In this document: in pieces, positions 2,633 to 39,633 of the stretch
How positions within the stretch are numbered: position 1 is the stretch's first letter
Layout of the letters: every line of letters starts with the position of its first letter
Assembly (NCBI GenBank): GCA_017883235.1
Contig: JADGNY010000058.1
Span: forward strand, 1-39,633
From: Thermoanaerobaculia bacterium
GTDB taxonomy: Bacteria; Acidobacteriota; Thermoanaerobaculia; Gp7-AA8
DNA: 39,633 nucleotides
Direction of reading: 5' to 3'
Notes under the pieces: generated by a model
Seen by the model: only the letters and a program-made list of their open reading frames with translations
Database searches by the model: none
What the model was told of the DNA's origin: nothing
Made by a program: the position numbers and the translations under genes

Positions 2633-4675
2633 CTACCGCCCCACCACCCCCACCGCCCTCTCCGTCGCCGCCAACAGCGCCTCAGGTCCCACCGGTGCGC
2701 CGGTAGCGTTCTTCATCCAGAGATCGGGGGTCACGCTTCCCATCCGGGCCATGCGTTCGAACTCGCTGCCGATGGCGCCGGCCTTCTTCATCTGCTCCTC
2801 GATCTGGAAGGCGATCATGTGGCCGATCGGGTAGTCGGGGAGATAGAGGAACGAGTCCACCATGTGCGCGTAGACGCCGAGGAGCGTCTCGTCGCGCAGA
2901 TGGAACACGGGAGCGTAGTAGTGGTTCCAGACATCCCGGGAAATCTGCACCACCGCCTCCTTCAGCTCCGCCGGAGTCGCATTTGGATGGTCGTACATCC
3001 AGTGCCACATCCCCATGTCGACCAGCGCCACGCCGGCGATCTCGTAGGCGCCCCAGAACTCGTTCAGCGTCTTCAGCGCGTCGCTCTCGGGCGACGGTTT
3101 GGCCAGCCCGAGCAACTCCAGATCGCGGTTCTGGAAGACGAACGCCAGCGCCTCGGTGAAGGCGGTGTTGGGAACGCCGGCGAGCAGCGTGTGATCGACG
3201 AGGTTCAGCGAGAACGTCTGCTCGACGTTGTGCCCCATCTCGTGCACGGCGATGTTGTAGCCCTTGTAGTCCATCCCGTCGGCGCCGACGCGCGTCCGGA
3301 GATGGGGATGGTCGGCGCGGCGGCCGGCGGGCATGGCGTGCCCCGATCCCCGCGCCGGATCGACGATGATGTTGTCCGCCAGCATCTTGGCCCGCTCCTC
3401 GGAAAAACCGAGCTCGCGGAACAGGCGCGGCATGTCGGCGTGATACGCCTCCGCGGTCGGATACTTCTTGCGCGTGATGCCGTCGAGTTGCGCGTCAGTA
3501 AAACTACCGCGCGGCCGGAAGCCGTTGTACCAGATGTCGAACGGCTCCAGCGGGCGGCCGAGACGTTTCTCGATCAACGCCGCCACGCGCGGTGCCAGCG
3601 GCGACGAGACGATCTGTTCCAGCATCGCCTTCACCCGCGCCTCCGGCAGCTCGCGCTCCTCGTCGAACTTCCGCGCGATCAGCGTCGGCGCGGTCGGTGA
3701 GTACGGATCGGCGAGCTTCGATGCGCGGAAGACCTTGAGGATCGTCGCGTACCGCGCGTTGGCCTCATGAATGGGCGCCTGCGGCGTGTAGTTGTCCGCA
3801 TCCTTCACGGCGGCCGGTTTGACGGCGTTCGTGGCCGGATTCCAGTCGACGTTCGGGTTATCGACCACGTCGTTCGGGATCGACTGATCGACGATCCGCT
3901 CCATCACCCGCTGGATGGTCCGCTGTTTGGCCAGGCCCGGCTTCCCTTCGCTGTACTCGGCCTTGATCTCGTCGCGCAGGTTCCAGTGCTCGAGCAGGCG
4001 CATCTTCGCCGGGAAGAGCCGCGCGCCGGCGTCGTCGACCAGGTGATGCATCCAGATGTTGTAGGTGGCCACGAACTGCGACGCCTCGCCCCCCGCTTTG
4101 GCGATGGCCAGGTTCACGTCCGCCGGCACGCGCCGCGAGAAGCGCTGCGCCAGCCGGGCCTCGGCCCACTGCCGCCGCGACCAGGAGTTGCCGTCTGTCA
4201 GTCTCTGTTCGAGCGTCGTCAGCGGAAAGTTGAGGAGGACGACGAAGGCCAGCTTGTTGGCGAAGAGGTCGTCGTTCAGATGCGCCGAGGGGTCGTAGCC
4301 GGCCATGATCTCGTCGAAGGGGTAGATCGGCCCGATGTTGAGATCCGACTGGCGCCGCAGCTCGCGGCCGATCTCGAGCATGTGCCCGTCGAGCTGCTCG
4401 AAGGCAAACTCCATCCGGCCGAAGAGGGCGTCGAGCGTCTTCGCCTCTCCCGCGAAGTTCGTCCTGGCAAACTCTGCGAACGCCGCCGCATCACCATCTT
4501 CGGCGCGCCAGAAGCCGGCGATCTGCTTCACACCGCGCGTTGCCTGCGCACGCTGTGCTTCGCCGTTTTTCGCGATCAGCTCGTTCGTAACGGTATCGAC
4601 GGGAAGAGTCATCTGGGAAAACGCGCTTCCGGCGATCGCCAGAGCGATCGCGGCCATGAAAAAGGTTCGTGACAC
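2633..4675 (-). CDS. Secreted gluzincin-type zinc metallopeptidase (M3-like)
   Basis: This protein of about 680 residues is probably exported. The start at GTG 4675 is preceded by AAAGGAG five bases upstream and is followed at once by the hydrophobic signal peptide FFMAAIALAIAGSAFSQ. The catalytic motif HEMGH (AVHEMGHNVEQ, near residue 478) supplies two zinc ligands and the general base. FTEALAF, about 35 residues later, supplies a plausible third Glu ligand as in gluzincins. The rest is mostly helical and acidic, consistent with an M3-like oligopeptidase fold, but the canonical M3 motif with a His three residues after HExxH is missing. An earlier in-frame start at 4732 would place polar residues before the signal peptide and lacks a ribosome binding site. 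It is divergent from folE. Substrate unknown. Confidence 0.75.
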   Translation of the reverse strand: MSRTFFMAAIALAIAGSAFSQMTLPVDTVTNELIAKNGEAQRAQATRGVKQIAGFWRAEDGDAAAFAEFARTNFAGEAKTLDALFGRMEFAFEQLDGHMLEIGRELRRQSDLNIGPIYPFDEIMAGYDPSAHLNDDLFANKLAFVVLLNFPLTTLEQRLTDGNSWSRRQWAEARLAQRFSRRVPADVNLAIAKAGGEASQFVATYNIWMHHLVDDAGARLFPAKMRLLEHWNLRDEIKAEYSEGKPGLAKQRTIQRVMERIVDQSIPNDVVDNPNVDWNPATNAVKPAAVKDADNYTPQAPIHEANARYATILKVFRASKLADPYSPTAPTLIARKFDEERELPEARVKAMLEQIVSSPLAPRVAALIEKRLGRPLEPFDIWYNGFRPRGSFTDAQLDGITRKKYPTAEAYHADMPRLFRELGFSEERAKMLADNIIVDPARGSGHAMPAGRRADHPHLRTRVGADGMDYKGYNIAVHEMGHNVEQTFSLNLVDHTLLAGVPNTAFTEALAFVFQNRDLELLGLAKPSPESDALKTLNEFWGAYEIAGVALVDMGMWHWMYDHPNATPAELKEAVVQISRDVWNHYYAPVFHLRDETLLGVYAHMVDSFLYLPDYPIGHMIAFQIEEQMKKAGAIGSEFERMARMGSVTPDLWMKNATGAPVGPEALLAATERAVGVVGR

Positions 4676-5386: not shown

Positions 5387-6919
5387 ATGGATCTTAAATC
5401 AGGTATCGCTATCGAGGAAATCGCCGACGGCGGCATGCTGTCCGGCGACGTGGAGGGCGAGGCAGTCGTGCTCGTCCGGCAGGGGAAGGAAGTCTTTGCC
5501 GTCGGCGCGGAATGCACGCACTACCACGGCCCGCTGGCCGAGGGCATCGTCAGCGGTGAGTCGATCCGCTGTCCATGGCATCACGCCTGTTTCGATCTGC
5601 GGACCGGCGCACCGAGCGCCCCGGCGTTGAATCCGATCCCGGTGTGGAACGTCGAGCAGCGCGATGGGCGGGTCTTCGTGACCACGAAACGCGACATTCC
5701 GCCGCCGGCTCGGGCGAAGACGCCCATCGCCTCGGTCGGGATCGTCGGTGCCGGACCAGCCGGCAACGCCGCCGCGGAGATGCTGCGGAGCGAAGGATTC
5801 GCCGGAGCGATCACGATGATCGGCGCGGAAGAGACCGTTCCCATCGATCGGCCGAATCTCTCGAAGGAGTATCTCGCTGGTACCGCCCCCGAGAAGTGGA
5901 TGCCGCTGCGCGACGCTGACTACTATCGCGGCCAGAACATCGAAGTCCTCACCGGCCGCCGGGCCATGCAGCTCGACACCAGAACGAAGACCCTCACGCT
6001 CGACGACAGATCGAAGCGGACCTTCGACGCTATCCTCATCGCCACCGGTTCCGAGCCGGTGCGCCTCTCGCCTCCCGGCGCAGGCCGCGTCCACGTCCTG
6101 CGCACGCTGCGCGACAGCCGCGCCATCATCGCCCTTGCCGAAAAGAGCACTGCCAAGGGAAAGCGCGCGGTCGTCCTCGGCGCCAGTTTCATCGGCCTCG
6201 AAGTGGCCGCGTCGCTGCGCGCGCGCGAGGTCGACGTCACCGTCGTCGCCCCGGACGAGGTCCCGCTGGGGAAGCCGATGGGCGTCGAGGTCGGCGCCTT
6301 CATCCGCCGTCTCCATGAGCAGCACGGCGTTCATTTCCGCCTCGGCACGACCGTGGCCACCTTCGAAGGCGACCGCGTCGTCCTCGCGACAGGGGAACCG
6401 ATCCCCGCCGACTTCATCGTCGCCGGCGTCGGCGTCCGCCCGAACACCCAGCTCGCCCAGTCTGCCCAGCCTGACGCCCTGACGGTCGACAACGGCATCG
6501 TCGTCGACGAGTTCCTCGAGACTGCCGTCCCCGGCATCTTCGCCGCCGGCGACGTCGCCCACTACCCCGACAGCTTCACTGGAAACAAAATCCGCGTGGA
6601 GCACTGGGTCGCCGCCGGCCGCCAGGGCCAGACCGCCGCCCGCAACATCCTCGGCCGCCGCACCCCCCACACCGCGCCGCCGTTCTTCTGGAGCGCCCAC
6701 TACGACGTCACCATCGCCTACGTCGGCCACGCCGCCGGCTTCGACCGCGTCGAGATCCACGGCTCCCTCGACGACCGCCGCGCCCTGGCCGCCTATCACG
6801 CCGGCCCCCACCTCACCGCCATTGCCGCCATCGGCCTCGACCGCGAGTCGCTCCTGATCGAGAAGGCGATGGAGGAGGGGGACCGCAACGCGATCGACGC
6901 GGTGATCGCGCGGATCTAA
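5387..6919 (+). CDS. Rieske-domain FAD/NAD(P)H oxidoreductase (AIF-like)
   Basis: This 510-residue two-domain enzyme starts with a Rieske [2Fe-2S] domain whose ligands are Cys43-x-His45 in AECTHYHG and Cys62-x-x-His65 in RCPWHH. A pyridine-nucleotide-disulfide reductase module follows: FAD-binding GIVGAGPAGNAAAEML near residue 120, the NAD(P)-binding VVLGASFIGLEVAASL near residue 260, and the second FAD motif GIFAAGDVAHYP near residue 385. This architecture matches AIFM3/Nfrl-type proteins and ferredoxin reductases for Rieske-type electron transfer. The ATG at 5387 has GGAG six bases upstream inside the end of folE; earlier in-frame starts would lie in the folE reading region. No signal peptide is visible, so it is probably cytoplasmic. 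The electron acceptor is unknown. Confidence 0.9.
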   Translation: MDLKSGIAIEEIADGGMLSGDVEGEAVVLVRQGKEVFAVGAECTHYHGPLAEGIVSGESIRCPWHHACFDLRTGAPSAPALNPIPVWNVEQRDGRVFVTTKRDIPPPARAKTPIASVGIVGAGPAGNAAAEMLRSEGFAGAITMIGAEETVPIDRPNLSKEYLAGTAPEKWMPLRDADYYRGQNIEVLTGRRAMQLDTRTKTLTLDDRSKRTFDAILIATGSEPVRLSPPGAGRVHVLRTLRDSRAIIALAEKSTAKGKRAVVLGASFIGLEVAASLRAREVDVTVVAPDEVPLGKPMGVEVGAFIRRLHEQHGVHFRLGTTVATFEGDRVVLATGEPIPADFIVAGVGVRPNTQLAQSAQPDALTVDNGIVVDEFLETAVPGIFAAGDVAHYPDSFTGNKIRVEHWVAAGRQGQTAARNILGRRTPHTAPPFFWSAHYDVTIAYVGHAAGFDRVEIHGSLDDRRALAAYHAGPHLTAIAAIGLDRESLLIEKAMEEGDRNAIDAVIARI

Positions 6920-6921
6920 AC

Positions 6922-6970
6922 CGGAGCGCTGGCGTCTCGCCGGCTGGCTCGGCGGCGTCTCGCCGCTGAG
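6922..6970. repeat. Half copy of the CGGAGCGCTGGCGTCTCGCC repeat family
   Basis: This sequence begins two bases after the stop codon of the Rieske/FAD gene. It matches the arms of the inverted repeats at 35382-35535 and 37811-37946 and the half copy at 38839. Only one arm is present here, so it cannot fold like the full elements. Confidence 0.8.
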
Positions 6971-7105
6971 GGTTACCGAGCATGTATGGTCACTGGCGGG
7001 CGGTGGCGGTCGCGTCGGAGAATCATTCTGTTCAAGCCGCGATTCGCCCGTGCGCACGGTCACACGGCTCCCGCGCACGGTTACACGGCTGGTGCGCACG
7101 TGCTA

Positions 7106-7490
7106 CCAGTGGGGTACCCACCGTCCCCCAGTGGGGTACGCCCCGTCCCCCAGTGGGGTACGCACCGTCCCCTGGTGGGGTACGCCCCGTCCCCCAGTGG
7201 GGTACGCACCGTCCCCTGGTGGGGTACGCCCCGTCCCCCAGTGGGGTACGCCCCGTCCCCCAGTGGGGTACGCCCCGTCCCCCAGTGGGGTACGCCCCGT
7301 CCCCCAGTGGGGTACGCCCCGTCCCCCAGTGGGGTACACACCCGTCCCCCAGTGGGGTACACACCGTCCCCCAGTGGGGTACGCACCGTCCCCCAGTGGG
7401 GTACGCACCGTCCCCCAGTGGGGCACCCACCGTCCCCCAGTGGGGCACCCACCGTCCCCCAGTGGGGTACGCACCGTCCCCCAGTGGGTC
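7106..7490. repeat. 22-bp direct tandem repeat array, 17 full units plus a partial unit
   Basis: The unit is CCAGTGGGGTACGCCCCGTCC plus one C, repeated head to tail from 7106 to 7480, with a broken eighteenth unit at 7481. Unit 11 (7326-7348) is 23 bases long. Variants occur at fixed columns: CCAG/CTGG, GTACGC/GTACAC/GCACCC, and CCCCG/CACCG. There are no spacers, so this is not a CRISPR array. The unit contains the near-palindrome CCCCA-G-TGGGG. No stop trinucleotide occurs in any of the six phases, which makes every frame appear open across it; I see no evidence that it is translated. The flanks hold two further short repeat families at 7040-7100 and 7500-7575. Confidence 0.95.
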
Positions 7491-9279: not shown

Positions 9280-10077
9280 ATGCTCCAAACATCCGCTCTG
9301 CTCAGTCAGATCGATTGGAAAGTTATAGCGCAAGTCGTCTCGGGTGGGGTCGCGGGAGCGATGCTAACTTTCATACTAAATCAAACTGTCGCCCGCAAAA
9401 GGCTGGCCCAGATCAATGTCAGTGTTTCACGAACAGACTATTCGATTCCAGCGAACGATACTGATCTACGGTCGGTTGAGGTCTCATATGGGGGGCGAAC
9501 CTTCGAAAAGTTACTACTTTACGAATTTACAGTCCGAAATGTGTCAACACGTGCGACTAAGGTTACGCCGTTCCTTTTTCTGCTTCCGAGGGACACAGAG
9601 GTTGTTGATCGTAGTTGCACGATCTATCCGGTCCATCGGCCAGATCTCTGGGAAGAGCGACCTGGTGCAGCCGCGATATACTTCTGGGATCCGGGCGAGC
9701 TAATGAGAGACGATTATGCCGTGTTGCGCGTGTTGTTCACGCCGGCAACCAACGTCGAATGGAAGTTTCGCGGGGAGGACGATATTCGAGTTGTGTCCGA
9801 GGACGCCGAAATCGTCGCTGACTTACAAGCAGATACGCGTCTGATCACCGCTTGGGTGGCGCTTTTCCTAATCGTTGGAGTGCTTCCCTTTGGCTCGGCG
9901 CTCGTTCGCGGCCTTTTGATCTGGGCTTCGACTCCATTTCTCGTTAATCGGATCGCTCAATGGCGTGCTGCGCTGGATCGTCAGCGCCGGCGTCGCCCAG
10001 ATCTAAACGTCGCGATGCAAGACGTTAGCGTCGCGGGCGATCTCCTGATCGAGAACGGGCGTGCGAGAGAGCGCTAA
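9280..10077 (+). CDS. Hypothetical membrane-anchored protein
   Basis: This 265-residue protein is not recognised. An N-terminal hydrophobic segment (VVSGGVAGAMLTFILN, about residues 18-33) and a C-terminal one (AWVALFLIVGVLPFGSALV, about residues 190-208) bracket a soluble, beta-rich central domain. The tail after the second segment is strongly basic (RQRRRRPD). This suggests a protein anchored at both ends. The ATG at 9280 is preceded by GAGGTGGAG; a GTG two codons earlier is possible. The 3' end overlaps the convergent reading frame at 10003 by 75 bases, which is probably caused by read-through of that duplicated gene. Composition is more AT-rich than in core genes, which fits an accessory gene. 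Confidence 0.7.
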   Translation: MLQTSALLSQIDWKVIAQVVSGGVAGAMLTFILNQTVARKRLAQINVSVSRTDYSIPANDTDLRSVEVSYGGRTFEKLLLYEFTVRNVSTRATKVTPFLFLLPRDTEVVDRSCTIYPVHRPDLWEERPGAAAIYFWDPGELMRDDYAVLRVLFTPATNVEWKFRGEDDIRVVSEDAEIVADLQADTRLITAWVALFLIVGVLPFGSALVRGLLIWASTPFLVNRIAQWRAALDRQRRRRPDLNVAMQDVSVAGDLLIENGRARER

Positions 10078-10563
10078 CGCGACGGCAGATAAATTGGGTG
10101 TGGTGTTAGCCTGCGGCCACCGCAGCGCCGCGGTGAAACCCGGTATCGCTGTCGCCAGATACTCCGAGTTCGCGGACACGACATCTAGCAGCTCGCGCGC
10201 GAGGACGGCGTCGACCGACTTGCCGTCGCGGTCGGCGAGGCGTTCGAGGGCGAGGATCTCGAGGCGGGGGATGCGGACTTCCAGGTCGGCGAGGCGGAGG
10301 AGCTCGGGGATGGCGTCGGCAAGGTCGGCGCCGAGGGCTTCTTCGATCGATTCCTGGGACCAGAAGTCCATGCCGAAGGAGGCCAGCTCTCCCCACGACA
10401 GCATCAGGCCGTGAGGGGTGTCGACCCCTTCCAGCTCACCGACTTCCATCCATCCGAGGACATCGCGCACGGGAATGCAAAGGATCTCGGCGGAGTCGCG
10501 GACGGAGTAGATATCCTTCGGTTCGAGGAAGAGGCGGCGGATGTGCGTGGCGGCGTCGGTCAT
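10003..10563 (-). CDS. Putative DNA-binding partner of XRE regulator, copy 1 (extended)
   Basis: The first 150 residues closely match copy 2 at 12216-12671. The N-terminal part (LFLEPKDIYSVRDSAEILCI, then DVLGWMEVGELEG) reads like an excisionase/MerR-type helix-turn-helix with a wing. The C-terminal part (IPRLEILALERLADRDGKSV, then AVLARELLDVVSANSEYLA) is helical and amphipathic. Copy 2 ends right after ALRWPQ, but here the frame continues for about 35 residues into the 3' end of the neighbouring membrane gene, so the native stop was probably lost at the duplication junction near 10105. The ATG at 10563 has GAGGA six bases upstream; an in-frame GTG-type extension to 10632 would run through the promoter. 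It is divergent from xre copy 1. No function is known; it may be a regulator or antitoxin-like protein. Confidence 0.72.
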   Translation of the reverse strand: MTDAATHIRRLFLEPKDIYSVRDSAEILCIPVRDVLGWMEVGELEGVDTPHGLMLSWGELASFGMDFWSQESIEEALGADLADAIPELLRLADLEVRIPRLEILALERLADRDGKSVDAVLARELLDVVSANSEYLATAIPGFTAALRWPQANTTPNLSAVALALSRTPVLDQEIARDANVLHRDV

Positions 10564-10603
10564 GGCATTCCTCTCAATCGGTTGGATCACGATGGCATTT
10601 GCC

Positions 10604-10632
10604 ATTGTATATGGACTGTAGTACATTGTCAA
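10604..10632 (-). promoter_or_regulatory. Near-consensus sigma70 promoter of partner gene copy 1
   Basis: On the minus strand TTGACA (10627-10632, perfect -35) and TACAAT (10604-10609) are 17 bases apart. The start codon at 10563 lies about 35 bases downstream. The spacer contains the palindrome TGTAGTACA, a possible operator for the divergent XRE protein. The same arrangement is conserved in copy 2. Confidence 0.75.
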
Positions 10633-10662
10633 TAGTCAGGTAGAGGTGTGAAATGTCGATCT

Positions 10663-10908
10663 ATGGTTCGCGAAGCGGAGATTTTCGGTGAAGCGCTGAA
10701 GCGCTGGCGTCTGAAGCGCGGTCTGACTCAGGAAGGGCTGGCCCATGAAGCGGGGATCACCACCAGCTACGCCAGCCAGGTCGAGAACGGCAAGAAGGTT
10801 CCAAGCCTCACCGTGGTCCTGAAGCTGTGCCGTGCCTTGAACCTCACTCCGGGCGAGTTGCTCTCGGATTTCACTGCCGCCTCGATTAAGAGGCTGCGCT
10901 TCGACTGA
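10663..10908 (+). CDS. XRE-family helix-turn-helix regulator, copy 1
   Basis: This 81-residue protein consists almost entirely of a Cro/C1-type HTH domain: EALKRWRLKRGLTQEGLA (helices 1-2), GITTSYASQVENGKKVPS (recognition helix and turn), then LTVVLKLCRALNLTPGELL. The short C-terminal tail SIKRLRFD is shared with copy 2. About 11 of 81 residues differ between copies. The ATG at 10663 is the homologous start, but only a weak, distant GAGGTG precedes it. It diverges from the partner gene across a region holding a strong promoter for the partner, so repression of the partner, with or without autoregulation, is the natural inference. It could also be the regulatory half of an undescribed two-gene module. 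Confidence 0.88.
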   Translation: MVREAEIFGEALKRWRLKRGLTQEGLAHEAGITTSYASQVENGKKVPSLTVVLKLCRALNLTPGELLSDFTAASIKRLRFD

Positions 10909-10939
10909 ACGATGGGAACTCTCCGGAAGTGAAGGGTCG

Positions 10940-11383
10940 TTATGGTTTGCCCTTCAGAACTCGGGGGCGCGTACCGTAGCCCCACTCCTCGAGCAGACCA
11001 TTGCGGAAGGCCACGTACTCCTGATGGTGAGACTCAGTGAGGGTGACGTCGGGCACGCCGACTTTTCTCTCAACGTTCTCAGGTGCCTCCGAGGCCCAGT
11101 CGTCCCCCGTAATCATCAGCTGTTGAGAGTCGAAGTCATAGACCCAGACCTCCCACACGTCGTCGCCCAGTTGAAATTTCTGCGATGACTGGGGCTGCGG
11201 TTTCACCGGCGGTCCGAGCAAGGAGAGAGTTTTGATGTCCGGTGCAAGAAACTGCTCCGGTGTGACTCCGCGACGGAGGATGAAGCAGTCGCATTTGTTC
11301 AATTCCATGAATAACGAGGTCGAGCAGCCCGTAACGCTCAAGCCAACCAAGACAACGGCCAACGCAATGATGAATCGCCTCAC
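10940..11383 (-). CDS. Small lipoprotein, copy 1
   Basis: This 147-residue protein starts with a lipoprotein signal peptide: FIIALAVVLVGLSVTGC with lipobox VTGC and predicted lipidation at Cys19. The mature part contains CDCFILRRGVTPEQFLAP, LGDDVWEVWVYDFD and a C-terminal QEYVAFRNGLLEEWGYG. The pattern of a G-x-P turn, a W-x-V strand and a final F-x-NG-x-L strand resembles the small BamE/SmpA-type fold, but this is a weak impression. GTG 11383 has AGGAGG eight bases upstream. It converges on xre copy 1 and diverges from the glycosylase fragment. A close paralogue lies at 14543-14992, with four additional signal-region differences visible. Confidence 0.8.
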   Translation of the reverse strand: MRRFIIALAVVLVGLSVTGCSTSLFMELNKCDCFILRRGVTPEQFLAPDIKTLSLLGPPVKPQPQSSQKFQLGDDVWEVWVYDFDSQQLMITGDDWASEAPENVERKVGVPDVTLTESHHQEYVAFRNGLLEEWGYGTRPRVLKGKP

Positions 11384-11576
11384 TGGGGTGCCTCCTTTCA
11401 GGGTGCGAGCCCTGACGCAAGGACATGCGAGAGATGATCCACACAATTACGGTAGATTCCGGCCGCCGTGCCACCAGAAGTCTCCTCAATTGAGGACGGA
11501 ACGTCCCGGGGAACGGCCGGAGCAAGCCGGGTCAGGGCCGTCTCGCTCGTGACGTGACTACGTTTAGATTGTCCCC

Positions 11577-12101
11577 ATGCAGGACCTCTCCCTCGCCGAC
11601 GCCCGCGCCCTTCTCCTTGAGGCGCAGGGGCTCAACCGACCGGCAGCGAAACGCGCCACGAAGGACGGCGTGTACGCGGCGATCCGCCGCATGGGCGTGC
11701 TTCAGATCGACACGATCCACGTCGTCGCCCGAAGCCCTTATCTCGTTCTCTGGAACCGGCTCGGCGCGTATGACCCGGACTGGCTCGATGAGCTGCTGGC
11801 CGAGGGGAGGATCTTCGAGTATTGGGCGCACGAGGCGTCCTTTCTTCCGATCGAAGACTATCCGCTCTTCCGGCGGCGCATGCGCGAGACCGGGTCGCTC
11901 GGGTGGAAATACTCGCACGAGTGGATGGCGGAGAACCGCGCGACGGTGCGGAAGATCCGCGCCCATCTCCGCGCGCACGGTCCGGTGCGCGCCGCCGACT
12001 TCACGCGCGAAGAGGGAAAGGGCAGTGGCTGGTGGGGGTGGAAGCCGGAGAAGTGGGGGGAAAGCAGGGGTGTCAGGCCTTCGTTTTCTGGCAAGGCGTA
12101 A
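11577..12101 (+). pseudogene. Truncated AlkX/YcaQ-type DNA glycosylase, copy 1
   Basis: The first roughly 158 residues match the N-terminal winged-helix region of the intact 404-residue copy at 15221-16435, including MGVLQIDTIHVVARSPYLVL and EYWAHEASFLPIEDYPLF. Homology stops after WWGWKPEK, and the frame ends 16 residues later in unrelated sequence, giving 174 residues. The lost two thirds include the rest of the winged-helix repeats and the C-terminal beta-barrel. The catalytic QID motif is still present, but the fold is incomplete, so activity is unlikely. The break point (about 12050) is the right-hand junction of duplication copy I. The start ATG at 11577 matches that of the intact copy. 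Confidence 0.85.
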
Positions 12102-12215
12102 CTCATTGAAACGCGGGGTCTTCCAGTCGCCGATTTGAGCAGCTGAAAGCGACCAACAATTATTCGTATCCTCGAAGCAGCCCAACCATGACGGATCTCA
12201 CATGGGCCGTGCTAC

Positions 12216-12671
12216 TTATTGCGGCCAGCGAAGCGCTGCGGTGAAGCCCGGTATCGCCGTGGCCAGGTACTCCGAGTGAGCGGACACGACGTCCAGCAGT
12301 TCGCGCGCGAGGATGGTGTCGACTGACTTGCCGTCGCGGTCGGCGAGGTGTTCCAAGGCGAGGATCTCGAGGCGGGGGATGCGGACTTCCAGATCGGCGA
12401 GGCGGAGGAGCTCGGGGATGGCGTCGGCGAGGTCGGCGCCGAGGGCTTCTTCGATCGATTCCTGGGACCAGAAATCTATGCCGAAGGAGGCCAGCTCTCC
12501 CCACGACAGCATCACTCCGCGAGGAGTGTCGACCCCTTCCAGTTCACCGACTTCCATCCATCCGAGTACGTCCGGCAGGGGCATGCAGAGGATCTCGGCG
12601 GCATCGCGGGTGGAGTAAGTATCCTTCGGTTCGAGGAAGAGGCGGCGGATGTGCGTGGCGGCGTAGGTCAT
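12216..12671 (-). CDS. Putative DNA-binding partner of XRE regulator, copy 2
   Basis: This 151-residue protein is probably the native-length form of the family. It shares with copy 1 an N-terminal HTH-like half (LFLEPKDTYSTRDAAEILCM and DVLGWMEVGELEGVDTPRG) and a helical C-terminal half ending ALRWPQ. Acidic and basic residues alternate in GADLADAIPELLRLADLEVR. The ATG at 12671 follows AGGAGG by eight bases, a clear ribosome binding site. It is transcribed divergently from xre copy 2 from a near-consensus promoter. No catalytic residues or export signals are seen. It may be a transcription factor, or the protein neutralised or regulated by the XRE protein. I do not know its function. Confidence 0.8.
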   Translation of the reverse strand: MTYAATHIRRLFLEPKDTYSTRDAAEILCMPLPDVLGWMEVGELEGVDTPRGVMLSWGELASFGIDFWSQESIEEALGADLADAIPELLRLADLEVRIPRLEILALEHLADRDGKSVDTILARELLDVVSAHSEYLATAIPGFTAALRWPQ

Positions 12672-12733
12672 GGCATGATCCTCCTGTGCGCGATGCGGTT
12701 GCCGTGTTTGATCGTCGCAATCGTACTGTAACG

Positions 12734-12762
12734 ATAGTAGCAGGACGATAGCAGGTTGTCAA
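12734..12762 (-). promoter_or_regulatory. Near-consensus sigma70 promoter of partner gene copy 2
   Basis: On the minus strand TTGACA (12757-12762) and TACTAT (12734-12739) are 17 bases apart, matching the copy 1 layout. A direct repeat ACGATAG (12731-12737 and 12745-12751) covers the -10 and spacer and is a candidate XRE operator. Confidence 0.75.
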
Positions 12763-12793
12763 CATCGCGTGGCGAAGGTTGAATGTCTGACTG

Positions 12794-13039
12794 ATGGCTC
12801 GCGAGGCTGAGATTTTCGGTGCTGCGCTGAAACACTGGCGGGAGAAGCGAGGGCTAACTCAGGAAGGACTTGCCCATGCGGCGGGCATCACCACCAGTTA
12901 CGCCAGCCAGGTGGAGCGCGCGGAGAAGGTTCCGACTCTTACCGTGATCCTGAAGCTGTGCCGTGCCTTGAACCTCACGCCGGGCGAGTTGCTCTCGGAT
13001 TTCACTTCTGCCTCGATCAAGAGGCTGCGCTTCGACTGA
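12794..13039 (+). CDS. XRE-family helix-turn-helix regulator, copy 2
   Basis: This 81-residue Cro/C1-type regulator has ALKHWREKRGLTQEGLA, then GITTSYASQVERAEKVPT and ILKLCRALNLTPGELLSDF. The recognition-helix residues TTSYASQVE are identical to copy 1, so both proteins should read similar operators. Substitutions cluster just after the recognition helix (NGKK versus RAEK) and in helix 1. The ATG at 12794 is in the same place relative to the domain as in copy 1; the ribosome binding site is weak. It is divergent from partner copy 2. Confidence 0.88.
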   Translation: MAREAEIFGAALKHWREKRGLTQEGLAHAAGITTSYASQVERAEKVPTLTVILKLCRALNLTPGELLSDFTSASIKRLRFD

Positions 13040-13060
13040 CCGGGGGGCGTGAACTGTCGC

Positions 13061-13246
13061 TCAACGAGAGGCAACGTGGCGCATGCCGGGTTCCGGTGCG
13101 TTCGACGGAAGAGTTACGACGCCTTCGGAATCGTGCTTCTCACGCTCTCGGAGGTATTCGAAGAATGCGTGAATGCTTTCACCTGCTTGCTCTACAAGTT
13201 CTGCGCGAGCTGCACGAGTCTCTTCAACAATTGGATCTTCCCACAT
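13061..13246 (-). CDS. Small protein of the MWEDPIVEE type (orphan)
   Basis: This 61-residue protein begins MWEDPIVEETRAARAELVEQ, followed by SIHAFFEYLREREKHDSEG. The opening W-E-D-P-I-V-E-E with a downstream amphipathic helix is a pattern I recognise from small uncharacterised bacterial proteins, often beside PIN-type or other small toxins. The ATG at 13246 is preceded by GGGAG six bases upstream, which separates it from the longer open frame beginning at 13324. The gene ends 22 bases from the convergent xre 2 stop and lies inside the insertion unique to duplication copy II. It could be an antitoxin-like protein whose partner is lost. Confidence 0.6.
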   Translation of the reverse strand: MWEDPIVEETRAARAELVEQAGESIHAFFEYLREREKHDSEGVVTLPSNAPEPGMRHVASR

Positions 13247-13585
13247 CTGCTTCTCTCCCGATTTTAGCAAGCCCTCTGGCTCGAGGTAACAGAGTGTCGC
13301 CAAATTTTTCTGGCCGCGGGACAAGAGCGCCCCAATTCACAGGACGCGCGAGACGCAGACTCTTGCGGCGGCCGCCTCCGCGGCCGCACTTCCACATGGC
13401 CAACGATACCCCGCGCTCGCGCTACGCCGAGCACGGGGCTGCATTGTATGTGCGCGCCTCCGCGCGCAACGGGCCAAAACTCTTATCGAGCAATCAGAGC
13501 CTGGGCTGTTTGCCGTTTCGTACGACAAGCACCGTCGATGCGAACGAGGACTCGAGCGACTGGGCGGTGGTTGCGAGGCCACCTT

Positions 13586-13665
13586 CCTGGGACCGCGGGC
13601 GTCTCGCCCGCGAGTCTAGGCAGCATCCTGCTCGACGGGCGCGCGGGACGCACGCGCTCCCAGGG
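13586..13665. repeat. CCTGGGACCGCG palindromic repeat, copy A
   Basis: This 80-base element is nearly identical to 17925-18004. Both open with CCTGGGACCGCGGGCGTCTC and close with GGGACGCACGCGCTCCCAGG, and the ends are partly complementary. A third, interrupted copy frames 31179-31480. The rest of 13247-13754 has no convincing gene. Confidence 0.85.
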
Positions 13666-13754
13666 ACGCGCGCCGCTCCTCTGTGGTATACGACTCACAT
13701 CCGCCTCTTCGTCGCCGGCGCTGTCCACCGATCGGGCGGTACCGCTGAGGGGAC

Positions 13755-14201
13755 TCACGCCCACCGTGCCAGATCGAACGCGGGCAGTAGCGGGTTCAGG
13801 AACTGCACCCCCTCCACTCGATGTCCGTTCGTGAAGTCTTCGGTGAAGATCGTCGGTACCTGGTTCAGGCGCGCGGTGGCCCAGATCTGTGCGTCGAAGT
13901 AGCTGAGTTGGTGTTCATGAACCCCTCGGCCGGCCTCCAGAACAATCAGGCGGGTTTGATCGAAAACGGGAAGAGCATCGCTGAGAAGTGTCACCTGACG
14001 AATAGAGTCCTGCATCGTGAGGATTGGCCTCCGGCCGCGGGTCGTCGCGCTCAGAAACTCGCCGAGGATTTGCGCGCTGAGACGTCCAAGCCCGCTCGCC
14101 ATGAGAGTCTCGATGGCGCGCAGGGCTCTTTCGTACTTTACGGCCTCCGATGGCTGGTGCGCGTAGACGAGAATGTTTGTGTCGATCAGGACTTCGTCCA
14201 T
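13755..14201 (-). CDS. PIN-domain ribonuclease toxin (VapC-like)
   Basis: This 148-residue PIN-domain protein is the probable toxin of a type II module. The acidic residues expected to hold Mg2+ are visible: Asp in DEVLIDTNILVYAHQ (near residue 7), Glu in SAQILGEFLSATTRG (near residue 50), Asp in LSYFDAQIWATA (near residue 102), and a final Asp in IFTEDFTNG. VapC-type PIN toxins cleave tRNA or rRNA. I chose ATG 14201 because the DTN motif should lie within the first 10 residues and upstream codons fall inside the antitoxin gene. It overlaps the antitoxin gene by 16 bases on the same strand, the usual antitoxin-first arrangement. It lies in the insertion in duplication copy II. Confidence 0.88.
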   Translation of the reverse strand: MDEVLIDTNILVYAHQPSEAVKYERALRAIETLMASGLGRLSAQILGEFLSATTRGRRPILTMQDSIRQVTLLSDALPVFDQTRLIVLEAGRGVHEHQLSYFDAQIWATARLNQVPTIFTEDFTNGHRVEGVQFLNPLLPAFDLARWA

Positions 14202-14467
14202 CGACTGATCCGATCGCCGTAGAGAGACTCCCGTGTCCACCCGCGGCCTCGGGGAGCTCTATCGAGGGAGGCACCGAGCGCACGCATGAAACCGAGAGCC
14301 TTCCGGGCGGCAGCCTCATCGACCTCCCGCCTGCGGACAACGGCGACGGTCTCGACGCCGTCCAACGCCTCACGAATGATCTCGGCTTCTGTCACGCCAC
14401 GTTGTCTGGCGCGGCGTTTCAGCATGCGCTCGTGACGCGGTTCGATATAGACCTGTTTCCGAATCAT
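14186..14467 (-). CDS. Ribbon-helix-helix antitoxin (VapB-like)
   Basis: This 93-residue protein begins MIRKQVYIEPRHERMLKR, a typical beta-strand plus helix A of a ribbon-helix-helix DNA-binding domain, and GVTEAEIIREALDGVE forms helix B. The C-terminal half (EVDEAAARKALGFMRAL and a Trp/Arg-rich end) would wrap the PIN toxin. The start at 14467 is chosen because the RHH strand begins there. An in-frame upstream Met is possible, and a TATACT box lies about 35 bases upstream. It precedes and overlaps the PIN gene, so it is probably co-transcribed and autoregulated. Confidence 0.8.
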   Translation of the reverse strand: MIRKQVYIEPRHERMLKRRARQRGVTEAEIIREALDGVETVAVVRRREVDEAAARKALGFMRALGASLDRAPRGRGWTRESLYGDRISRWTKS

Positions 14468-14542
14468 CGCTGACTGCCACTTAACGTACATCGCAGTATA
14501 CATCGCTCACGAAGTTCGTATCTCGTCGCGCTTCGCGCTCAA

Positions 14543-14992
14543 CTACCGGCTATCGTTCGTAAAGCCTCCGGAGTGACGGTCGTTTGTCCTTCTGTTCAGA
14601 GCTCCGGGGAGCGAGCCTCGGCCCCACGACTCGAGACGACCATTGCGGAAGGCCACGTACTCCTGATGGCCCCACCCCGAAGAGATGTTCATGCCTAGTT
14701 GGGAACGCCAGTCGCCCCCGTTTACATATGCAGAAGGGTCGAACTGATAGACCCACACCTCCCACACGTCGTCGCCGAGCTGAAAGATCTGCGATGACTG
14801 CGGCTGAGGTTTACGGGACGGCCCGAGCCAGGAGTGCGTCTTGCTGTCCGGTCCCGCAAACTGCTCTGGTGTGACTCCTGGTCGGAGCGTGAAGCAGTTG
14901 CATTGGCTCAGTTCCATCAATGACCACGACGAGCAGCCCGTAACGCTCAGGCCAACCAATACGGCGGTCAACGCAATGATGAATCGCTTCAT
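14543..14992 (-). CDS. Small lipoprotein, copy 2
   Basis: This 149-residue paralogue of 10940-11383 has the signal peptide MKRFIIALTAVLVGLSVTGC, lipobox VTGC and predicted lipid-modified Cys20. It shares CNCFTLRPGVTPEQFAGP, LGDDVWEVWVYQFD and QEYVAFRNGRLESWGRG with copy 1, but the middle is shorter and the last 20 residues differ. The ATG at 14992 follows AGGAGG. It diverges from intact alkX and lies just downstream of the inserted TA pair. Probably anchored in the inner or outer membrane, possibly BamE-like in fold. Function unknown. Confidence 0.8.
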   Translation of the reverse strand: MKRFIIALTAVLVGLSVTGCSSWSLMELSQCNCFTLRPGVTPEQFAGPDSKTHSWLGPSRKPQPQSSQIFQLGDDVWEVWVYQFDPSAYVNGGDWRSQLGMNISSGWGHQEYVAFRNGRLESWGRGSLPGALNRRTNDRHSGGFTNDSR

Positions 14993-15114
14993 TGGATGCC
15001 TCCTTTCAGGGTGCCAGCACTGACGCAAGGACATGCGAGAGTTGATCCACACAATCCCCATAGATTCCGGCCGCCGTGCCACCAGAAGTCTCCTCAATGG
15101 AGGACGGAATGTCA

Positions 15115-15219
15115 GCGTTGGGGGTCAGGTCGAAAGTCGAAAGTGCCGGCGCAGGGGCTATCGTATCTGGGACATCCAGGCCCGCCGGCACTTTCGACTT
15201 TCGACCTGACCCCCAACGC
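15115..15219. repeat. Perfect 37-bp inverted repeat abutting the alkX start
   Basis: The arms at 15115-15151 and 15183-15219 are exact reverse complements over 37 bases, with a 31-base loop. Each arm contains an internal direct repeat TCGAAAG. The right arm ends one base before the ATG at 15221, so the region that should contain the ribosome binding site is buried in the stem. Copy I of the duplication has no such element at the homologous position, so it is an insertion after duplication. Confidence 0.93.
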
Positions 15220-15220
15220 C

Positions 15221-16435
15221 ATGCAGAACCTCTCCCTCGCCGACGCCCGTGCTCTTCTCCTGACGGCGCAGGGGCTCGACCGCGTGGGGGTGACGCGTGC
15301 CACCAAGGACCGCGTGCGTGCGGCGATCCGCCGCATGGGCGCGCTCCAGATCGACACGATCCACGTCGTCGCACGCAGCCCGTATCTCGTCCTCTGGAGC
15401 CGGCTCGGCGCGTACGATCCGGCATGGCTCGACGAGCTGCTGGCCGAGGGGAGGATCTTCGAGTATTGGGCGCACGAGGCCTCCTTCCTCCCGATCGAAG
15501 ACTATCCCCTCTTCCGCCGCCGCATGCGCGAGACCGGGTCGCTCGGGTGGAAATACTCGCACGAGTGGATGACGGAGAACCGCCAGACGGTGCGGAAGAT
15601 CCGGGCTCACCTCCGCGCGCACGGCCCGGTGCGCGCCGCCGACTTCACGCGCGCGGACGGAAACGGCGGCGGCTGGTGGGGCTGGAAGCCGGAGAAGCGC
15701 GCCCTCGAATACCTCTTCAGCGCCGGTGAGCTCATGATCGCGCGGCGGGAGCGCTTCCAGCGGGTGTACGACCTGCGCGAGCGCGTTCTCCCCGGATGGA
15801 ACGACGCCCGCCTCCCCTCCGCCGCGGTGACGCACCGTACGCTCGTGGCCAACGCTGTGCGCGCGCTCGGCGTGGCCACCGCCCGCTGGGCCGCGGACTA
15901 TTACCGCATGACCCTCGCCGAGACGGCGGCCGCGATCGAGTCGCTCGTCCGTGACGGCGAGCTCCTTCCGGCGCGCATCGAGAGCGTGGCCGGCGACGCC
16001 TTCCTCCATCGGGGCCATCGCCCGACGCTGGCCGCCATCCGGCGCGGCCGCCGTCCCTCGCACACGACCCTCCTCTCGCCCTTCGATCCGGTGGTCTGGG
16101 ACCGGAAGCGCGCTCTGGCGCTCTTCGGGTTCGACTACCGCATCGAGTGCTACACGCCGGCGCCGAAGCGGCGCTACGGCTACTTCACCCTCCCGATCCT
16201 CGTCGGCGACCGCCTCGTCGGCCGCCTCGACGCCAAGGCCCATCGCGTCGCCGGCGTCTTCGAGGTGAAATCGCTCCATATCGAGGAAGGCATCGTCCTC
16301 GACGACGCGCTCGCGGAGAGGATCGCCGGCGCGATCGAAGCCTGCGCGGCATGGCACGGCACCCCACGCGTCCGGCTGGGGCGCGTCGTGCCGCGGGAGG
16401 CTGCGGCGATGCTGCGCCGCGCGAAAATTCTTTAA
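15221..16435 (+). CDS. AlkX/YcaQ-type DNA glycosylase (HTH_42 family), intact copy
   Basis: This 404-residue protein covers the full HTH_42 family: N-terminal winged-helix modules (MQNLSLADARALLLTAQG, then MGALQIDTIHVVARSPYLVL and EYWAHEASFLPIEDYPLF), a central helical part, and a C-terminal beta-rich domain (TTLLSPFDPVVWDRKRALAL, FDYRIECYTPAPKRRYGYFT, GDRLVGRLDAKAHR). E. coli YcaQ (AlkX) is a glycosylase that unhooks interstrand crosslinks and excises bulky alkylated bases; its class carries a Q-x-D active-site motif, seen here as Gln43-Ile-Asp45. The ATG at 15221 matches the start of the truncated copy, but no free ribosome binding site is visible because of the hairpin immediately upstream. 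It lies divergent from lipoprotein copy 2. Likely a DNA-repair enzyme in the cytoplasm. Confidence 0.9.
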   Translation: MQNLSLADARALLLTAQGLDRVGVTRATKDRVRAAIRRMGALQIDTIHVVARSPYLVLWSRLGAYDPAWLDELLAEGRIFEYWAHEASFLPIEDYPLFRRRMRETGSLGWKYSHEWMTENRQTVRKIRAHLRAHGPVRAADFTRADGNGGGWWGWKPEKRALEYLFSAGELMIARRERFQRVYDLRERVLPGWNDARLPSAAVTHRTLVANAVRALGVATARWAADYYRMTLAETAAAIESLVRDGELLPARIESVAGDAFLHRGHRPTLAAIRRGRRPSHTTLLSPFDPVVWDRKRALALFGFDYRIECYTPAPKRRYGYFTLPILVGDRLVGRLDAKAHRVAGVFEVKSLHIEEGIVLDDALAERIAGAIEACAAWHGTPRVRLGRVVPREAAAMLRRAKIL

Positions 16436-35381: not shown

Positions 35382-35535
35382 CGGAGCGCTGGCGTCTCGC
35401 CGGCTGGCCCGGGGGCGTCTCGCCCCCGGTCTGACAGGACTCCATACAGTTGCGTGAACCTCCTCAGCGGCGAGACCCTTCGGCTCCGCTCAGGGCAGGC
35501 TCTGCTGGGCCAGCCGGCGAGACGCCAGCGCTCCG
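35382..35535. repeat. Perfect 29-bp inverted repeat, CGGAGCGCTGG family
   Basis: The arms at 35382-35410 and 35507-35535 are exact reverse complements. They belong to the family also seen at 6922, 37811-37946 and 38839. The element fills the gap between folP and cdaA. The loop contains a further GGGGGCGTCTCGCCCCC hairpin. Confidence 0.92.
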
Positions 35536-37782: not shown

Positions 37783-37810
37783 GTGGCAGGGGATTGTATG
37801 CGGTTGGCAA

Positions 37811-37946
37811 CCGGAGCGCTGGCGTCTCGCCGGCTGGCTCGGCGGCGTCTCGCCGCCGATCTGGCAAGACTCCGAACATTCGCTGCTAACCCTCCGACCA
37901 GCGGCGAGACGCCGCTGGGCCAGCCGGCGAGACGCCAGCGCTCCGG
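37811..37946. repeat. Inverted repeat, CGGAGCGCTGG family (full copy)
   Basis: The left arm begins CCGGAGCGCTGGCGTCTCGC at 37811 and the right arm ends GCGAGACGCCAGCGCTCCGG at 37946. Complementarity extends about 46 bases inward with a few mismatches. It lies in the divergent gap between murA and the metallo-beta-lactamase-fold gene, so it may influence both promoters. Confidence 0.9.
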
Positions 37947-37972
37947 GGTTACACCCTGCTACCATAACCTCC

Positions 37973-38809: not shown

Positions 38810-38838
38810 GAGGGCGGTGCGAACGCGCGCAGCGCGCC

Positions 38839-38886
38839 CCGGAGCGCTGGCGTCTCGCCGGCTGGCCCGGCGGCGTCTCGCCGCCG
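38839..38886. repeat. Half copy of the CGGAGCGCTGG repeat family
   Basis: This single arm starts CCGGAGCGCTGGCGTCTCGC. Similarity to the 37811 copy continues past the arm through ACATTCGCTG-TAACCC (38906-38921), so it is a 3'-truncated copy of that element. Confidence 0.85.
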
Positions 38887-39138
38887 GTGTGACGAGAATC
38901 GAGACATTCGCTGTTAACCCGCTCACTTCCGCGCGCGGAACCACCCGTTGGCGGCGCCCCGGAGGCAATTCGCTGCCTTCTCGTTCGGAGGAACGATATT
39001 CACGCGAAGAGACGCGAAGACGAAGGATTCACGTGAGCTGATTTCTTCTCCGGCTGCCGTTTACTCCACCAGGGCAGGCTTTAGGCGCCTCCAGACAGGC
39101 TCTCCACCCACCTCAACAGGCTGTACGCCTCTAGGGGT

Positions 39139-39458: not shown

Positions 39459-39633
39459 GAGTCTGATCATAGACTCGTGGAGTCTGATCATAGACTCGTG
39501 GAGTCTGATCATAGACTCGTGGAGTCTGATCATGGACTCGTGGAGTCTGATCATAGACTCGTGGAGTCTGATCATAGACTCGTGGAGTCTGATCATGGAC
39601 TCGTGGAGTCTGATCATGGACTCGTGGAGTCTG
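39459..39633. repeat. 21-bp tandem repeat of palindromic units running off the window
   Basis: Eight full units of GAGTCTGATCATAGACTC plus GTG run from 39459 to 39626, and a ninth begins at 39627. Units 4, 7 and 8 read CATGG in place of CATAG. Each unit has complementary ends GAGTCT/AGACTC around a central GATC, so every unit is a small hairpin. The array is cut by the window edge, so its full length is unknown. Confidence 0.95.

Follow-up and report, generated by a model that had tools for sequence, protein, structure and literature searches.

Small XRE proteins of about 80 residues act as controller (C) proteins of restriction-modification (R-M) systems, and, among solved structures, C.AhdI and C.BclI are closest to the product of one of the genes treated here. 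Two reports (PMC4824078, PMC5333194) describe C genes as autoregulated and often leaderless, and the EcoRV C and M promoters as divergent and overlapping. A comparable layout is present in contig JADGNY010000058.1 of a soil-dwelling Thermoanaerobaculia bacterium, a stretch of 39,633 nucleotides that was analyzed whole (contig C83) and is called the window below; the genome (G000) comprises 6.92 Mb in 246 contigs. Here, a repressor-like XRE gene shares a divergent promoter region with a partner gene, P, and each such pair is referred to as a module. Unlike in R-M systems, the divergent gene is P, not a methyltransferase gene, and no restriction gene follows either window XRE. Excisionases, BldC and MerR-type winged-helix proteins have the same likely fold as P residues 11-70 or so, and ribbon-helix-helix (RHH) regulators and antitoxins such as Arc, CopA(SO), and MatP resemble residues 92-135 or so; P differs from the former by an added RHH-like domain and from the latter in carrying that domain behind a winged helix. 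XRE-type type II toxin-antitoxin systems (HigBA, HipBA) likewise place an antitoxin-size XRE gene beside a small gene and occur in multiple copies, but their two genes form one operon, whereas those of both window modules are divergent. The features concerned are as follows.

10003 to 10563, minus strand: P copy 1, 186 residues, with the homologous part at 10111-10563 and then a 35-residue extension.
12216 to 12671, minus strand: P copy 2, 151 residues, with an excisionase-like winged helix predicted within about residues 1-80 and an RHH-like domain at about 92-135.
10663 to 10908, plus strand: XRE copy 1, 81 residues, R-M controller-like, matching HTH_3 and HTH_31 (scanned without its first residue).
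12794 to 13039, plus strand: XRE copy 2, 81 residues, R-M controller-like.
10604 to 10632, minus strand: promoter toward P copy 1, TTGACA-N17-TACAAT.
12734 to 12762, minus strand: promoter toward P copy 2, TTGACA-N17-TACTAT.
10617 to 10625: TGTAGTACA in the spacer of the P copy 1 promoter, a candidate operator that may be no more than chance.
12731 to 12751: two ACGATAG direct repeats over the -10 box and spacer of the P copy 2 promoter, a candidate operator.
10112 to 12053: duplicated segment, copy 1, with P, XRE, a lipoprotein-like gene (10940-11446, minus), and a truncated AlkZ-like gene (11577-12101, plus).
12220 to 15697: duplicated segment, copy 2, present as 12220-13042 and 14566-15697, with other genes at 13043-14565 between the halves.

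As the first-pass annotation of this DNA had claimed, two 81-residue XRE genes each diverge from a P gene, the modules spanning 10003-10908 and 12216-13039. Its partner length of about 151 residues holds for copy 2; copy 1 has lost its stop codon and reads on. The promoter it described toward the partner is present in both modules, with the -35 box TTGACA at 10632-10627 and the -10 box TACAAT at 10609-10604 in copy 1, the -35 box at 12762-12757 and the -10 box TACTAT at 12739-12734 in copy 2, and a spacing of 17 bp in each. The XRE start codon lies about 30 bp from the opposing P -35 box. The two modules are not separate occurrences. Comparison of the window with itself gives an 84% match between 10112-10911 and 12220-13042 and a 79% match between 10921-12053 and 14566-15697, and both modules are products of a single segmental tandem duplication whose second copy is split by about 1.5 kb. 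Because they stem from one duplication, the twofold occurrence is not independent evidence.

The wider family was assessed with 32 full-length P copies, each covering the family profile and free of frameshifts and internal stops; 15 come from this genome and 17 from elsewhere. Contig-cut, frameshifted, and fragmentary copies were excluded, and L025 was kept though it lacks its last residues at a contig end. A divergent XRE gene faces 25 of the 32, and the association is near-fixed. Promoters were scored as matches out of 12 to TTGACA-N16-18-TATAAT, with expectations from dinucleotide shuffles, in 32 pairs made up of the 25 XRE-facing full-length copies and seven broken or cut copies that keep their XRE; these are related copies and not independent, and the 30 pairs outside the window were selected as divergent. 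At least 10 matches are reached toward P in 16 of the 32 pairs (0.1 expected) and toward XRE in none, which marks the TTGACA-N17 promoter of P as a trait of the family, beyond chance. Among full-length copies, such a promoter accompanies 10 of the 25 with an XRE and none of the seven without. The gap between the P and XRE hits is 103-157 bp across the 32 scored pairs. The start codons of L031 and L063 are uncertain.

The XRE protein matches HTH_3 and HTH_31 in Pfam. The best PDB matches of a 25-member profile are C.AhdI (6.6e-18) and C.BclI (1.3e-15), and by similarity only we regard the protein as a small C-type regulator. The two window XREs agree in every residue of TTSYASQVE, the segment we interpret as the recognition helix.

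The earlier statement that the partner belongs to no nameable family stands for copy 2, which has no match to a Pfam family at E up to 1 or to an NCBIfam family at E up to 0.1; copy 1 has one Pfam match, below its cut-off. The NCBIfam excisionase model TIGR01764 matches 5 of 27 P members (best 3.4e-5). The structural model of copy 2 has a mean predicted local distance difference test score (pLDDT) of 70.6 and a predicted template modeling score of 0.53, and is confident over residues 1-80 only (block pLDDT 78-93). After realignment of the Foldseek candidates, the leading entries are Pukovnik Xis (Z 7.7, root-mean-square deviation 1.7 over 55 aligned residues) and BldC (Z 7.3, deviation 1.6 over 50), with scores that, being below 8, can reflect a common structural arrangement. 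Residues 11-70 or so likely form an excisionase/BldC-type winged helix of the Xis type. The best PDB sequence match to P (2kfs, E 0.011) was not relied on.

The second half of P seems to hold an RHH-like domain. A profile built from 12 RHH stretches of this genome aligns to residues 92-135 with a probability of 82.7 and E 9.5e-6; in control comparisons, reversing the profile gave 0.58, XRE gave 0.017, and the best of 40 column shuffles gave 0.04. On their own, the 15 more distant P members gave 5.8e-6; the remaining 12 gave 9.6e-5. None of the 15 Pfam families that any of the 27 members match at E up to 0.1 is an RHH model, and a PDB sequence search with the C-terminal half gave nothing better than E 0.49. 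Modeled alone, this half has low confidence (pLDDT 67.1), and the monomer model consists of helices with no strand. It was aligned to 27 chains; of the 13 rows listed, nine belong to RHH proteins (Arc, CopA(SO), MatP, CdbA), with weak Z scores of 2.8-4.6. P seems to be an apparently undescribed DNA-binding protein of two domains, a winged helix and an RHH-like part. Many C-terminal P fragments begin near residue 65-80; free-standing RHH mini-proteins were considered and rejected, several of these fragments being repeat-interrupted P genes or run-on from unrelated sequence.

The resemblance of the P N-terminus to Xis proteins raises the possibility that the module is the remnant control region of an integrative element, with XRE as immunity repressor, P as excisionase or directionality factor, and spread by the element. 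Two copies in relative G016 that stand behind an HTH_26-like gene, with an S24 peptidase gene upstream in the one tested, also fit this explanation. We nonetheless judge it distinctly improbable. None of 50,697 phage and 72,556 plasmid records matches P copy 2, and no P was confirmed in viral contigs with two peptide patterns. Inspection by eye recognized no integrase beside the window modules and, elsewhere, only a recombinase-like gene near L155 and transposase-like genes near L136 and L139, none of them family-confirmed. Finally, an RHH-like domain would to our knowledge be unusual in an excisionase.

With P copy 2 as query, 46 matches are found in its own genome, many of them fragments (a broken gene can count twice), and XRE copy 2 gives 30. 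Seven of 60 genomes, this one included, match P; one of these (G040, E 9.6e-4) was taken as chance, and the five relatives hold 11, 8, 4, 1, and 1 matches. In a draw of 396 genomes of the phylum, eight (again including this one) match, five of them weakly (E 9.8e-5 to 9.5e-4) and in the winged-helix part only; at most nine candidates were scored per genome, so absence here is soft. Six named loci comprise four of Acidobacteriota bacterium CP_BM_ER_20, one of Thermoanaerobaculia bacterium Chersky.9_17, and one on a Gemmatimonadaceae contig. The last (L077, JADGQR010000158.1, a 6.7 kb contig) is the sole P match of its 3.4 Mb genome and may reflect transfer or misbinning, which look the same here. 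The modules are expanded within one group of Acidobacteriota.

Selection has acted on the close copies. The ratio of nonsynonymous to synonymous divergence (omega) is 0.18 for P and 0.18 for XRE in the window pair, and 0.06-0.34 for P pairs with synonymous distance (dS) below 0.3, among the pairs listed; close P pairs look constrained by purifying selection. P and XRE distances correlate (r 0.51, 26 pairs), a value reached in none of 2000 permutations. Several pairs are nevertheless decoupled, with P much more similar between copies than the XRE or promoter: dS for P and XRE is 0.23 and 1.20 in L020-L034, 0.13 and 0.83 in L025-L026, 0.38 and 1.28 in L012-L013, and 0.25 and 1.25 in L023-L073. 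Corresponding values are 0.27 and 0.46 for the window pair, 0.69 and 0.19 for L060-L061, and 0.65 and 0.70 for L058-L075. Identity steps sharply at the P start codon, from 51 to 98% in L020-L034 and from 50 to 94% in L025-L026, and drops at the P stop wherever sequence is available. Eleven P groups were examined on the XRE tree (67 columns, no correction for several tests), which rejects L023+L073 (p 0.0055) and L017+L020+L034 (p 0.003), is marginal for L020+L034 (p 0.044), and does not reject L012+L013 (p 0.32), L023+L071+L073 (p 0.074), or L022+L023+L071+L073 (p 0.087); five of the 11, including L025+L026, are already together on that tree. These patterns are most simply accounted for if P has undergone gene conversion or XRE has been exchanged.

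A rival explanation is that the family grows mainly by repeat-driven, near-neutral expansion, with P multiplied by ectopic recombination or conversion and the XRE link inherited but not functional. The many fragments, the repeats inserted in P, the contigs that end inside P, and the omega values often near 1 among distant P pairs fit this explanation. The low omega of the close pairs given above and the recurrence of the P promoter and its spacing across divergent copies speak against it, and we consider it improbable. Several contigs do end inside P, and exact 99-mers are common to the ends of C96/C184, C18/C131, and C78/C186, as expected if near-identical repeats break the assembly. In L015 (about 4102-4176), L011 (about 2780-2815), and L016 (about 2450-2490), a similar short repeat of the TTTCTGG type breaks P near residue 37 or 75, a pattern compatible with one old break that later spread. 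Other repeats accompany the family. Tandem repeats of about 66 bp, open in several frames, occupy 7103-7488 of the window, and the same repeat adjoins the P copy in L021. Dispersed repeats of 45-50 bp occur in both orientations at 6919-6969, 35382-35434, 37809-37948, and 38837-38888, and also near P in L026, L029, and L040. Contig C156, which bears a module too, starts (L013:1-110) with sequence near-identical to the tandem repeat at the end of the window (39459-39633), and the two contigs may adjoin.

We favor, with moderate confidence, a lineage-expanded divergent switch of two regulators, a controller-like repressor and a two-domain DNA-binding partner. Gene order, the P promoter, the near-fixed association, purifying selection in close pairs, the expansion, and the constancy of P in several pairs whose XRE and promoter differ are direct observations; the domain make-up, in which the RHH-like part would dimerize, is supported by similarity. 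P would be transcribed from a strong promoter of the sigma70 type within the intergenic region that both genes share, and XRE from a weak or leaderless start near the P -35 box. XRE would bind the intergenic region and keep P low; once XRE was lost or diluted, P would be released and would bind DNA targets of its own. The modules often lie in defence-rich, plastic regions, which suggests that they may time neighboring defence genes.

Several observations weigh against this switch, beginning with the operators. Palindromes are only mildly enriched, with 6 of 32 pairs scoring at least 6 (1.7 expected), and are unremarkable in the window, where the best inverted repeats of the intergenic regions score 5.5 (copy 1) and 3.75 (copy 2) and 5.6 of 32 shuffled regions would be expected to score at least 5. 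No motif common to the inverted repeats was seen in the 32 pairs, and an operator common to the family, like the symmetric C-box that would complete the parallel with C systems, was not found; the idea of one was rejected, only the mild enrichment having been seen. The short repeats singled out earlier as suited to XRE binding do exist (TGTAGTACA at 10617-10625, ACGATAG at 12731 and 12745, 14 bp apart) and may be no more than chance. The two window XREs have one recognition helix, yet the intergenic region is the least conserved part of the modules, 31-52% identical between copies compared with 78-98% in both genes. Cross-talk through shared operators, which the identical helices had seemed to allow, is weakened by these values, and we rejected it.

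Other points against the switch concern the proteins and their association. Foldseek with the P model found no PDB match at E 0.001 or better, in addition to the Z scores below 8. DdrO (2.3e-15) is nearly level with C.BclI in the XRE profile search, and SinR, HigA, and HipB match too, the last two more weakly than C.AhdI and C.BclI. Fifteen of the 25 XRE-linked full-length P copies score below 10 of 12 for the promoter. For distant P pairs, a simple estimate of omega is often near or above 1; we read this as compressed dS at high GC, which is unproven. The first-pass annotation had named homologues without an XRE neighbor as grounds for refutation, and such copies exist, as seven of the 32 full-length P copies have no divergent XRE. 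Three are in this genome: in L021 and L023b the start codon is missing from the homologous position, although L023b offers a TTG farther upstream, and L027 has no -35 box. Two in G002, a same-genus relative, are divergent members of the family, and two in G016 (C6, C14) are preceded, on their own strand, by an HTH_26-like gene that scores slightly below the cut-off. This order is seen at L064:1-1436 and L067:2-1431, where the HTH_26-like gene was tested in both; a gene for an S24 peptidase (PF00717) lies further upstream on that strand, as tested in L064, and L067 reads alike. Conversely, the 30 XRE matches of this genome divide into 16 that face P, two that face a P fragment, and 12 beside which no P was found. 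These 12 are on C79, C87, C26, C160, C204, C105:2700, C120:73885, C147, C38, C74, C8, and C27.

The XRE-less copies bear also on a toxin-antitoxin explanation, in which P would inhibit growth, perhaps via DNA binding as proposed for SymE-like proteins, and XRE would be the antitoxin or a silencing repressor. The copy number is large and many copies are broken. The three XRE-less full-length P genes of this genome look unexpressed, two for want of the homologous start codon and one for want of a -35 box. SymE-family genes adjoin P in G001, a relative of the same genus, and in relative G016, lying 3' of P at G001:C51, G001:C237, and G016:C10; three of the four SymE matches of G001 adjoin P, in two loci. 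The SymE gene at C51 and C10 carries a P-like winged helix (single-protein Pfam matches under cut-off), the make-up read at L143:10506-11297 and L132:2629-3417, where the gene behind P joins such a helix to a SymE-like domain. Two modules have PIN genes nearby, and one has a Fic gene. Set against this, P is read as a pair of DNA-binding domains, and searches with 27 members matched no toxin family in NCBIfam or Pfam (at E up to 0.1) or in PHROGs (at E up to 0.001). The genes are divergent and form no operon, this genome has no SymE match, and the P genes of G016:C6 and C14 have only the same-strand HTH_26-like gene in place of a divergent XRE. We consider toxin-antitoxin function unlikely and keep it in play mainly because the XRE-less copies of this genome look unexpressed and SymE accompanies P elsewhere. 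Of the earlier proposal of an undescribed regulatory or toxin-antitoxin system, the regulatory half is fairly backed by the association in 25 of 32 copies; the other half finds no support in the DNA-binding domains, the divergent layout, or the duplication.

Within the window, the first gene 3' of each XRE is on the opposite strand, and no defence gene was recognized directly behind XRE at either module. The duplication also carries the lipoprotein-like gene (10940-11446 and 14543-15097), with no Pfam match above its cut-off, and beside each copy an AlkZ-like gene (PF06224), truncated at 11577-12101 and full at 15224-16435. Inside the split of the second copy, at 13755-14503, a PIN-domain gene (PF01850) overlaps a small upstream gene that, if read as RHH (Pfam E 0.094 only), would make a VapBC-like pair.

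Beyond the window, the genes predicted up to 6 kb from a module were compared with PADLOC: all 126 from 17 regions of this genome (including XRE-less L161 and the P fragment at L160) and 109 of 111 from 15 regions of relatives (two overlapping a module were dropped, and the XRE-less regions L141, L142, L144, and L145 were unused). The control took 129 of 200 genes from interiors of long contigs. Among the best 25 families listed for each, those near modules include DrmMII (2.7e-133), SoFic (3.7e-122), DpdJ (0), REase_I (0), PrrC (2.1e-138), and IetA (8.3e-68), and the control is topped by mad3 (1.6e-52), followed by 3.6e-17. This is suggestive of frequent defence genes near modules, in a comparison of family lists, not per-gene counts, with long-contig controls that is no clean enrichment test. 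On the side and strand of XRE, G001 has a DUF6602/NucC-like nuclease, a TIR gene, and IetA/IetS, and G016 has HsdR; in this genome, HerA lies on the strand opposite XRE. Outside the window, some loci have nuclease genes behind XRE, and Vsr and Fic genes lie near other modules. Four other XRE-side genes (L131, L133, L140, L156) have no PADLOC match. By mechanical gene prediction, the first gene within 350 bp behind XRE is co-directional in 16 of 31 pairs, opposed in 12, and absent in three; with no orientation bias, the view of XRE as first gene of a defence operon was rejected.

A bolder version of the switch, which we find doubtful, would make the module a portable control cassette for defence genes. 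The controller-like XRE would govern the winged helix-RHH partner, and P, homogenized across the genome, would serve as a homology anchor for the exchange of XRE genes, operators, and defence cargo, giving many insulated switches with one conserved output protein.

The modules add to the divergent layout of C proteins a partner that seems undescribed, an excisionase-like winged helix joined to an RHH-like domain. About 25 intact paralogous or related switches are available, in several pairs of which the output protein is near-constant and the repressor and promoter have changed, and they would offer a test bed for the divergence of repressors and operators. The company of defence genes leads to a testable prediction, namely that the modules may set the timing of defence expression.

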